From Hufsiella ginkgonis (GTDB lineage Bacteria; Bacteroidota; Bacteroidia; Sphingobacteriales; Sphingobacteriaceae), in the NCBI RefSeq assembly GCF_009834915.1, contig NZ_WVHS01000003.1:62001-126000 (forward strand): a stretch of 64,000 nucleotides of DNA, read 5' to 3'. The notes beneath the pieces are model-generated. The model ran no database searches. It was not told the origin of the DNA and saw nothing but the letters and a program-made list of their open reading frames with translations. Positions 55,229 to 59,921 of the stretch are shown here, piece after piece. Numbering within the stretch: the stretch's first letter is position 1; each line of letters starts with the position of its first letter. A program made the position numbers and the translations under genes.

Positions 55229-56230
<1,002 letters not shown>

Positions 56231-57082
56231 TTATTGATTTTTATTTGTGTAATATGTTAATACGTTAAAAATGGGCGCTTTAACAACCGAGGCAATTTCC
56301 AGGCCGTAATTGCCGGCCACTTCCCGCAACCAGGGTTCGAAGGCAAAGGCGATGGTGCCGGCAAAATGTAATGGCGCTCCCGGGTTCGTTTCAGTGATCG
56401 GCGTCACATAGTTCTTAAAGTAGAGGTCGAAACCTTCCTTTACCGTTTCTTTGACATAAGTGTCGTTTGCATTTTCTGCGAAGAACTCTGAAAACGACGT
56501 AAGGAACAATACCGGCTGCGGCTGCCTGTACACCTTGTCCAGGATCTGTTTGCGCTCGAGCCCGAATTTCTTGTTGAACTTATTCAATAGCGGCTCGGGG
56601 AGCGTATGGTTCAGGAAGCTTTTGAGCAGCCTTCGGCCGAGCCAGTTAGCCGAGCCTTCGTCGCTTAAGATGTATCCCAGTCCGTTGTTGTTCTCTTTTA
56701 CTGATCGCCCGTTATAATAAGCAACGTTCGAACCGCTGCCGATAATGCCTACCACCCCTTCATGATCGCCGCAGGTAGCCAAAGCGGCCGCTTTCAGGTC
56801 GTGCTCGACTGAGATCTTACCATACCTGAAAAAATTACTGAACGACGTGGCAATGATCTTTTTCCTGTCGGGAGACGAAGCGCCTGCACCAAAGAAATAG
56901 ATCTTTTTGATGCGCTCGGCATAAGTAACCAGCTCGTTGGTTTTATTCAGCAACTGGGTGATGAAGCGCTCGTCGTTGAAAAAGGGGTTGATACCGAGCG
57001 TTTTAAACTCGGCGATAATCGAGCCCTTATCTGCCAGCTTCCAGTTTGCATATCTCGAACCGCTGTAAACTACTGCAATCAT
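56231..57082 (-). CDS. BadF/NAGK-like protein with degenerate phosphate motif (pseudo-sugar-kinase)
   Basis: 283 residues of the BadF/BadG/BcrA/BcrD ATPase fold to which N-acetylglucosamine kinases belong. The phosphate-1 loop near the N-terminus reads VVYSGSRYANW, where the paralogue at 59073-59921 has IADGGSTKTNW; the catalytic/metal Asp (position 6) is Tyr and the loop Thr and Lys are replaced. The phosphate-2 loop GIIGSGSN is kept. Nucleotide or sugar binding may survive while phosphorylation is unlikely. It starts immediately after the pfkA stop and ends 6 bases before gap, so it is embedded in a glycolytic operon and may act as a sensor. Confidence 0.8.
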   Translation of the reverse strand: MIAVVYSGSRYANWKLADKGSIIAEFKTLGINPFFNDERFITQLLNKTNELVTYAERIKKIYFFGAGASSPDRKKIIATSFSNFFRYGKISVEHDLKAAALATCGDHEGVVGIIGSGSNVAYYNGRSVKENNNGLGYILSDEGSANWLGRRLLKSFLNHTLPEPLLNKFNKKFGLERKQILDKVYRQPQPVLFLTSFSEFFAENANDTYVKETVKEGFDLYFKNYVTPITETNPGAPLHFAGTIAFAFEPWLREVAGNYGLEIASVVKAPIFNVLTYYTNKNQ

Positions 57083-58066
57083 TTATATGGTAAGGATCGT
57101 TGACATTTCCATCAGGTCCTCTTCAAGTTTAAAAGAATTATTGTTAATCGATTCAACCAGGTCCGTCAGCTTTACCCGGTTGCCCCTGATCCCGACCATT
57201 TTACGGGTTTCGCCCGCTTCCAGCGCCTTTACCGCTGCATACCCGAGACGGCTTGCCAGCACACGGTCGAAACTGGTCGGGCTGCCGCCGCGCTGCAAGT
57301 GGCCTAAGATAGTTACTTTGATGTCGTAAAACTGAAACTTTTCTTTTACCAATTTCGCTACATGGTAGGCGCCGCCATTTTTATCGCCTTCGGCAATGAT
57401 CACGATGCTGGAGCTTTTATTGCTATCGGCGCCTTTCTCCAGTTTCTGGATCAGGTCTTCTATCCCGGTGTCTTTTTCGGGAAGGAGGATCGCCTCGGCG
57501 CCTCCCGCAGTACCCGCCCAAAGTGCGATACAGCCGGAGTCTCGTCCCATTACTTCGATAAAAAACAACCGGTCATGCGAGGCGGCTGTGTCCCTGATCT
57601 TATCGATAGCCTCGATCACCGTATTATTGGCGGTATCGTAACCCAGGGTGAAGTCAGAACCGTACAGGTCGTTGTCAATGGTCCCCGGAACACAGATCAC
57701 CGGGATGTCGAACTCCCGCGAGAGCAGCTCGGCGCCGGTAAACGTACCATCACCGCCGATAGCTACCAACGCATCAATGCCTTCTTTTTTTAGATTCTTA
57801 TATGCTTTCTGCCGGCCTTCATAGGTGCGGAACTCGTCGCAACGGGCGGTTTTAAGGATGGTACCTCCAAGCTGGATAATGTTGCAAACCGAGTGGGAAT
57901 CCATATTTACGAACTTCCTGTCGACCATCCCCTGGTAACCTTGTTTAATCCCCACTACCTCTTTACCCAAATAAATGCCCGTCCGGACCACAGCCCTGAT
58001 GCAGGCATTCATCCCGGGAGCGTCGCCCCCAGAGGTAAGTACCCCGATTTTCTTTATGGCTTTCAC
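57083..58066 (-). CDS. pfkA: ATP-dependent 6-phosphofructokinase
   Basis: 327 residues. The ATP site is GVLTSGGDAPGMN and GGDGTF (104-109), where Gly rather than Asp after GGD indicates ATP rather than pyrophosphate as donor. The catalytic base is D131 in GTIDNDL, and the substrate block is EVMGRDSGCIAL. It phosphorylates fructose-6-phosphate. It is the first gene of the operon pfkA - pseudo-kinase - gap and faces the NUDIX-type regulator across 132 bases with operator-like repeats. Confidence 0.97.
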   Translation of the reverse strand: MKAIKKIGVLTSGGDAPGMNACIRAVVRTGIYLGKEVVGIKQGYQGMVDRKFVNMDSHSVCNIIQLGGTILKTARCDEFRTYEGRQKAYKNLKKEGIDALVAIGGDGTFTGAELLSREFDIPVICVPGTIDNDLYGSDFTLGYDTANNTVIEAIDKIRDTAASHDRLFFIEVMGRDSGCIALWAGTAGGAEAILLPEKDTGIEDLIQKLEKGADSNKSSSIVIIAEGDKNGGAYHVAKLVKEKFQFYDIKVTILGHLQRGGSPTSFDRVLASRLGYAAVKALEAGETRKMVGIRGNRVKLTDLVESINNNSFKLEEDLMEMSTILTI

Positions 58067-59072: not shown

Positions 59073-59921
59073 CTACTTATCTTCGAGGTGGAACTTCACC
59101 AGGTTATCTATCGGGGATCTCAGTAATTGTCCCATTTCCATTCCCCATTCGGCCGCTACTTCCTCAATTACGTTACGGAAATTGTAAGCAACAGATCCTA
59201 CGCAGTTAAACGTATAGTTTTTATAATCAGGGTAATGGCTCACCAGGTTGCGGAAGAAATCGTCGAACGATGTTTTAACCAGGTTGCGGGTGTATTCTAT
59301 GTTCACGTTATTGTCATAAACAAACTTGGCGAAGCTTGCGCAGAAGCGGCTCACCATCGGTTTGGTGTACACGGCGTCTTCGATCTCTTCCGGCGTTAAG
59401 CCGAAGGTGTCCCAGAAACTCTGGCGAACGGCTTCGGGCATGTAGCCGCGAAGGTAGTCGATCAGCAATTTTTTACCGATGTGGCAGCCGCTGCCTTCGT
59501 CGCCCAATATATAAGCACCCGAATTGATCTGGTGCGTAATATCGTCGCCGTCATACAGGCAGCTGTTTGTGCCGGTGCCCAGGATGGCCGCAAAACCTTT
59601 CTCTTTTCCGAGGAGCGCACGTGCGGCAGCCAGTAAGTCGTGGCCCACGAAAACTTTTGCGCCGGGAAATACTGCCTTGATCGCTCTTTCGAGAATGCTG
59701 GCCTTTTCGTCACTATGTACACCTGCGCCATAGTAATTGACCTCGGTGATCTTGTCAAACTCCAGGTCTTCCGGCAGGCCTTTTTGAAGGGAGCCGATAA
59801 TATATTCTTCGTCGACGAAAAAAGGATTGTATCCTTCAGTATTGAAATAGATTTTTTTGCCTTCGTCATTGATCAGGCACCAGTTCGTTTTTGTAGAACC
59901 ACCGTCAGCGATTATGATCAT
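59073..59921 (-). CDS. BadF/NAGK-like sugar kinase (intact paralogue)
   Basis: 282 residues, same fold as the protein at 56231-57082. The phosphate-1 loop is IADGGSTKTNW (4-14) with Asp 6, and the phosphate-2 loop is AILGTGTNS. LGDEGSGCHIG follows as in N-acetylglucosamine kinases. It is likely to phosphorylate GlcNAc or a related hexosamine, perhaps for cell-wall sugar recycling; the substrate is not proved. It lies on the same strand as the glycolytic operon, with the regulator gene between. Confidence 0.87.
   Translation of the reverse strand: MIIIADGGSTKTNWCLINDEGKKIYFNTEGYNPFFVDEEYIIGSLQKGLPEDLEFDKITEVNYYGAGVHSDEKASILERAIKAVFPGAKVFVGHDLLAAARALLGKEKGFAAILGTGTNSCLYDGDDITHQINSGAYILGDEGSGCHIGKKLLIDYLRGYMPEAVRQSFWDTFGLTPEEIEDAVYTKPMVSRFCASFAKFVYDNNVNIEYTRNLVKTSFDDFFRNLVSHYPDYKNYTFNCVGSVAYNFRNVIEEVAAEWGMEMGQLLRSPIDNLVKFHLEDK

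Follow-up and report, generated by a model that had tools for sequence, protein, structure and literature searches.

A predicted sugar-binding pseudokinase encoded between pfkA and gap in Hufsiella ginkgonis and other Sphingobacteriaceae

The window, that is, the whole stretch of 64,000 nucleotides of Hufsiella ginkgonis DNA analysed here, carries on its minus strand a glycolysis operon in which an additional gene is located between pfkA and gap. The protein that this gene is predicted to encode is referred to as X, and an intact paralogue encoded nearby as K. The features considered are the following, with the roles of the loop motif and of individual residues taken from the accessible part of PMC10465942.

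56231..57082, minus strand: X, a putative pseudokinase of 283 amino acids homologous to sugar kinases of the MurK/K1058 type (open reading frame, sequence and fold matches)
57047..57067, minus strand: altered phosphate-1 loop YSGSRYA, codons 6-12 of X, corresponding to DxGxT in kinases (alignment)
56798..56800, minus strand: Asp at codon 95 of X, equivalent to the catalytic and sugar-clamping Asp95 of MurK (84 of 84 X proteins)
56660..56662, minus strand: Asp at codon 141 of X, equivalent to the sugar-binding Asp141 of MurK (84 of 84 X proteins)
57083..58066, minus strand: pfkA, ATP-dependent 6-phosphofructokinase, the operon gene upstream of X
55229..56224, minus strand: gap, type I glyceraldehyde-3-phosphate dehydrogenase, the gene downstream of X
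59073..59921, minus strand: K, an intact paralogue (DGGSTKT), K1058-like and not the sister of X (sequence matches and tree)

As stated in the preliminary description, the gene for X starts immediately behind the pfkA stop (57083), and six bases separate its end from the start codon of gap (56224). That the loop aspartate has been replaced also holds: the N-terminus of X is MIAVVYSGSRYANW, that of K, which is 33% identical to X, is MIIIADGGSTKTNW, and X reads YSGSRYA where its kinase relatives read D(S/G)GSTKT. K is indeed an intact paralogue at a distance of about 2 kb, the gap between the two genes being 1,990 bases, but as judged from alignments and the tree the closest intact paralogue of X is a third homologue encoded elsewhere in the genome (contig C1:343030-343881, MILVADSGSSKTDW). 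This protein, K2, is MurK-like and shares 39% identity with X across 271 residues.

A phmmer search against the PDB placed X closest to 1zbs (4.8e-49) and 1zxo (3.6e-48), with 170 and 168 bits, respectively, which represent the uncharacterised putative kinases PG1100 from Porphyromonas gingivalis and Q8A1P1 from Bacteroides thetaiotaomicron and have the same fold, and also retrieved MurK (8oqw, 9.5e-44) and K1058 (8oqk, 6.3e-38). The structure predicted for X with AlphaFold2 (mean pLDDT 91.1, pTM 0.87) was aligned over the whole chain to MurK/K1058-type structures with Z-scores of 31.6-35.1 in VIA-align, and the next best match had a Z-score of 24.6. Both analyses point to an ancestry and a fold shared with MurK (8oqw, 8oqx, 8ow9) and K1058 (8oqk, 8ow7), the MurNAc kinases of T. 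forsythia, with which X has in common about 30% identity, its length and the sugar-contact residues, including Asp95 and Asp141. In the accessible part of PMC10465942, the PDB codes of these structures are printed with QQ. Of the two paralogues, K is closer to K1058 (218 bits) than to MurK (181 bits), and K2 is closer to MurK (222 bits) than to K1058 (184 bits). The description of X as NAGK-like is not supported, as its characterised relatives are MurK and K1058 and not NAGK. X scored 36 bits against the NCBIfam model NF046058 (NagK_SO3507), which has a curated cut-off of 370, and 21.9 bits against PF01869 (BcrAD_BadFG), which has a gathering cut-off of 31.5 that the intact K also fails to reach (23.9 bits).

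PF01869 was the sole Pfam match of X at E<=0.1; a DNA-binding helix-turn-helix domain was absent, and the kinase fold spans the whole chain. We considered X as a DNA-binding sensor and ruled this out, since there is no extra domain. The sugar-kinase fold is used for sensing in the ROK repressors (NagC, Lmo0178), and Lmo0178 was among the fold matches (Z 16.8), but the ROK repressors carry a DNA-binding domain, whereas all 283 residues of X are aligned to the kinase fold.

The loop was compared in a pooled set of 191 distinct full-length homologues, from which rows shorter than 250 or longer than 340 amino acids were dropped and which consists of 84 X, 36 K, 30 K2 and 41 other proteins; the 84 represent a minority of the X proteins of the 178 X-bearing genomes. 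At position 6, X has Tyr in 81 and Phe in 3 proteins, and in the window together with the 48 loci of a gene-order scan the counts are 47 Tyr and 2 Phe. The same position is Asp in all K and K2 proteins, Asp in 36 and Glu in 5 of the others, and Asp in 38 and Glu in 2 of 40 further relatives from other families, such that the acidic residue is kept as Asp (140) or Glu (7) in 147 of the 147 non-X relatives examined. Position 10 of X is Arg in 55, Lys in 22, Asn in 4, His in 2 and Asp in 1 of the 84 proteins, and position 12 is Ala in 80 and Ser in 4. The loop of MurK and K1058 is DxGxT where X has YxGxR, and PG1100 and Q8A1P1 retain SGSTKTDW in the alignments, while X does not. Because the DxGxT motif is absent from X, which reads YSGSR in the window, we class it only as a kinase homologue and not as a kinase. 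Homologues in the same operon position with a retained loop would have contradicted the preliminary description, but none was seen: all 84 X proteins lack this loop. Within the Sphingobacteriaceae, the altered loop was seen in all 84 X proteins and the order pfkA-X-gap in 48 of the 48 loci of the scan, all from named genomes, which included one genome per species.

Outside the Sphingobacteriaceae, the altered loop was seen in none of 75 homologues (34 of the 41 others, one K-like protein and the 40 further relatives). A draw of 247 genomes across the phylum gave a match in 120, with scores at the level of X (>400 bits) confined to the 7 of 7 genomes from the window's own family; of the matches weaker than E ~1e-20, a minority entered the loop comparison. 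Among the genomes searched, X was found only in the family of the window. A record named Flavihumibacter soli R14 (L014), perhaps misnamed, carries an X locus that matches a genome of this family (G122). One group of kinases in the same family (L132, L133-L136) reads ESGSTKC, with Glu in place of the loop Asp, and in one genome (G306) the loop of X reads YSDSDGAQW.

In the accessible part of PMC10465942, the residues of MurK that form the sugar cavity and those that contact ATP are named one by one; Asp95 is the catalytic residue and also clamps the sugar, and Thr10 touches the beta-phosphate of ATP. Among the sugar-site residues, G67, D95 and D141 are present in all 84 X proteins, N32 in 83 and N119 in 72 (His in 11, Thr in 1), and the X protein of the window carries all three of the sugar contacts G67, N119 and D141. 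All residues named in the accessible part of that source were used as column sets, 19 for the sugar and 10 for ATP, and compared with 10,000 random column sets. The mean entropy of the 19 sugar columns was 0.58 bits in X, 0.55 bits in K2 and 0.32 bits in K, as compared to 1.39 bits for all columns of X, and none of the 10,000 random sets was as low. For the ten ATP columns, the mean entropy was 1.03 bits in X, 0.43 bits in K2 and 0.10 bits in K, and 1,181 of the 10,000 random sets were as low. The sugar site of X is thus conserved at about the level in K2 and less strongly than in K. Earlier, hand-picked sets of 11 and 10 columns gave the same contrast, which is smaller but still present with all of the named columns. 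The dominant residue in X is identical to that in K2 in 16 of the 19 sugar columns, as compared to 2 of the 10 ATP columns and 122 of all 283 columns, and for this reason X looks, by sequence, like a pseudokinase whose sugar site has been preserved. The loss of an adenine-stacking aromatic residue (X246) was also considered as a special mark of X and was rejected, as this position is often non-aromatic in the 40 further kinases too, and many kinases of another family likewise lack the aromatic residue.

Several of these residues could be read in another way. X may still be an enzyme, in which Asp95 would mediate phosphotransfer from a different donor or in a different direction, and the basic residue 10 and Tyr6 would serve the new donor. 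Calls of pseudoenzymes made from sequence can prove wrong; Asp95 and G117 are present in 84 of 84 X proteins, and the replacement of T116 by S116 in 83 of the 84 is a mild change. We nevertheless consider this reading unlikely, since the loop Asp is gone in every X protein, the ATP columns are free to vary, and the conservation of Asp95 needs no catalysis if this residue clamps the sugar as in MurK (PMC10465942, accessible part). The invariant Asp95, which fits an active enzyme too, still counts against the pseudokinase reading, as do the His at N119 in 11 of the 84 proteins, the variable and in seven cases non-basic position 10, and the retention of X in two genomes that have no K2 (G379, G368).

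The loss of the loop could also mean that X is a decaying gene carried along in a highly expressed operon, and X is missing in 23 of 201 family genomes and frame-broken in another (G352). However, dN/dS ratios for 22 close pairs (Nei-Gojobori) were 0.028-0.150 for X, as compared to 0-0.092 for gap and 0.014-0.125 for pfkA, which indicates that X is a working gene under purifying selection and led us to reject a pseudogene. Moreover, 17 columns do not vary at all among the 84 X proteins, and all 84 are of full length, although rows of less than 250 amino acids, G352 among them, had been dropped beforehand. Decay is therefore highly improbable, and the earlier statement that X is kept in frame between two glycolytic genes is borne out by both the purifying selection and the gene order.

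X (E<=1e-100) was identified in 178 of the 201 family genomes, and a renewed search of 20 of the 23 X-less genomes (G309, G318 and G319 left out) did not recover it. In 7 X-less genomes, pfkA is directly followed by gap, with nothing between them and both genes intact. Conversely, the operon pfkA is gone in G306 (100% complete, 2.3 Mb) and G254, where another type of pfkA (about 61% identical) is left, and X is still located before gap. These two genomes show that PfkA is not an obligatory partner and rule out a strict dependence of X on PfkA. They also speak against PfkA as the sole target. The preliminary view of a conserved relative of kinases whose phosphate-1 loop is broken can be upheld, with the sugar site kept. 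A second pfkA in the genome of H. ginkgonis (contig C1:1483113-1484024) is 63% identical to the operon copy and seems to be of the type left in the genomes without an operon pfkA.

The preliminary description had suggested a sensor or an enzyme regulator; in this reading, X would regulate the adjacent glycolytic enzymes by contacting PfkA or GAPDH once a sugar or a sugar phosphate is bound. The invariant gene order in the scan, the start of X at the pfkA stop and the close spacing to gap are in line with this reading, and G306 and G254, in which X remains beside gap, do not detract from a link to GAPDH. On the other hand, the retention of X in these genomes does not need PfkA, the seven X-less genomes with adjacent pfkA and gap genes indicate that both enzymes function in the absence of X, gene order means co-expression rather than contact, and the loss of X tracks the loss of K2, not of gap. 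We regard a regulator of this kind as rather doubtful.

A tree calculated for 113 proteins unites the X proteins in a single clade (100/100) that is sister to the K2 clade (100/91), while K is placed elsewhere; the stem length is 0.83 changes per column for X and 0.46 for K2. This position, together with the retention of K in X-less genomes, led us to reject the idea that K is the protein from which X arose or its counterpart. K2 (E<=1e-70) was identified in 175 of the 201 family genomes, but three of these matches are weaker (G288, G299, G309; E ~1e-71 to 1e-73) and come from a genus whose copies, as examined outside G309, sit in another branch. The other 172 matches are strong and all found in X-bearing genomes (172 of 178), and none of the 23 X-less genomes has one. 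X occurs without K2 in three genomes that are 71-87% complete (G254, G255, G324), in G368 (92%), in G379 (99%) and in G352 (99%), in which both X and K2 are frame-broken (L237, L238) and pfkA, gap and K are whole, a pattern that could reflect a shared loss or an assembly error. Neither gene is present in G295 (2.8 Mb), from a genus that otherwise mostly has both, or in G264 (2.2 Mb). That most genomes have either both X and K2 or neither of them suggests a shared role, although shared descent means that these counts are not independent, and the genome is small in two of the cases.

One explanation for this pattern is that X is a non-catalytic subunit of K2, forming a mixed dimer through a MurK-type interface and setting the activity or the sugar response of K2. 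The sister relationship, the co-distribution and the joint absence or breakage in G295, G264 and G352 are in line with this idea, and MurK and K1058 are dimers according to the accessible part of PMC10465942. However, the genes for X and K2 are unlinked, the co-distribution may equally reflect a shared origin and losses in small genomes, the breaks in G352 could be assembly errors, and X is present without K2 in G379 and G368 as well as in the three less complete genomes. A K2 subunit is a possibility to be taken seriously, but it falls short of being probable.

The best explanation as a whole is in our view that X is a sugar-binding pseudokinase, to which we assign a probability of roughly 0.6, with its ligand, partner and role put forward conditionally. 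The loss of the ATP loop, the retained sugar pocket and the preservation of the gene in most of the sampled family members together indicate that X probably senses a sugar rather than phosphorylates it. We envisage that the gene for a MurK-like amino-sugar kinase was duplicated, that the K2 copy stayed a kinase and that the X copy came to lie between pfkA and gap. X would then have lost the phosphate-1 loop for ATP (Asp6 to Tyr, Thr10 to Arg/Lys) and kept the sugar pocket, in which an Asp serves as a clamp for O4 and O6. Co-produced with PfkA and GAPDH, it would bind an amino sugar, such as MurNAc, GlcNAc or a relative, or the corresponding 6-phosphate, which might be held by Arg/Lys10, near the O6 of the sugar, where MurK holds the beta-phosphate of ATP. 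The binding would close the two domains, as MurNAc does in MurK (PMC10465942, accessible part), and the closed form would act on another protein. This partner would most likely be K2 or another amino-sugar enzyme, reached by direct contact or in a mixed dimer, and a glycolytic enzyme would be the second choice; K2 is favoured by descent and co-distribution, and gene order would favour GAPDH or PfkA. More tentatively, X and K2 could be a duplicated pair that has split into a sensor and an enzyme, where X would read MurNAc, GlcNAc or their 6-phosphates and set K2 or a glycolytic enzyme, thereby tying the recycling of cell-wall sugars to glycolytic expression in the Sphingobacteriaceae.

Among the relatives of protein kinases, kinase-dead forms are familiar; sugar kinases that have turned into sensors are few, such as Gal3p and the ROK repressors. 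Gal3p belongs to the GHMP kinases, another fold family than that of X. GKRP, a SIS-domain protein, is a sugar-phosphate sensor that controls a sugar kinase, and X resembles it in this idea but has no SIS match in Pfam. In yeast, Gal3p is an inactive galactokinase paralogue that relays galactose to Gal80 (PMC7556753, accessible part), and it shares with X only the idea of a kinase duplicate that becomes a sensor with its sugar site kept; its partner is a transcription regulator. What makes X worthwhile to study is that it has become fixed in the core glycolysis operon in a large family of environmental bacteria, that its sugar pocket has been retained while its ATP site was released, and that an active sister, K2, is available for comparison. 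Searches of the open-licence literature on sugar pseudokinases, on the Pedobacter-type pfkA-gap operon and on inactive NAGK paralogues gave no paper on X. We know of no earlier pseudokinase in the MurK/NAGK branch of the ASKHA sugar kinases, and if the split into sensor and enzyme is true, X would to our knowledge be the first in this branch and would correspond, in a bacterium, to Gal3p or GKRP in its role.

Related kinases with an intact loop are encoded after gap, in the order pfkA-gap-kinase, in 12 of 14 loci examined from another family of the class (f4), which we take to be the Flavobacteriaceae, and in the one locus examined from a further family (f7); these loci are L114-L123, L130, L131 and L124. 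The f4 kinases differ from X in both tree branch and position, and the intact kinases beyond gap in the two families suggest either that such kinases have been drawn repeatedly to the pfkA-gap region or that the link is old. K2 also has a recurrent neighbour: a single-domain response regulator (L050:1095-1493, contig C1, outside the window) lies directly upstream of it on the same strand, and homologues of this regulator are located beside K2, at a distance of 4-13 bases, in 18 of 30 K2 loci, including that of H. ginkgonis.
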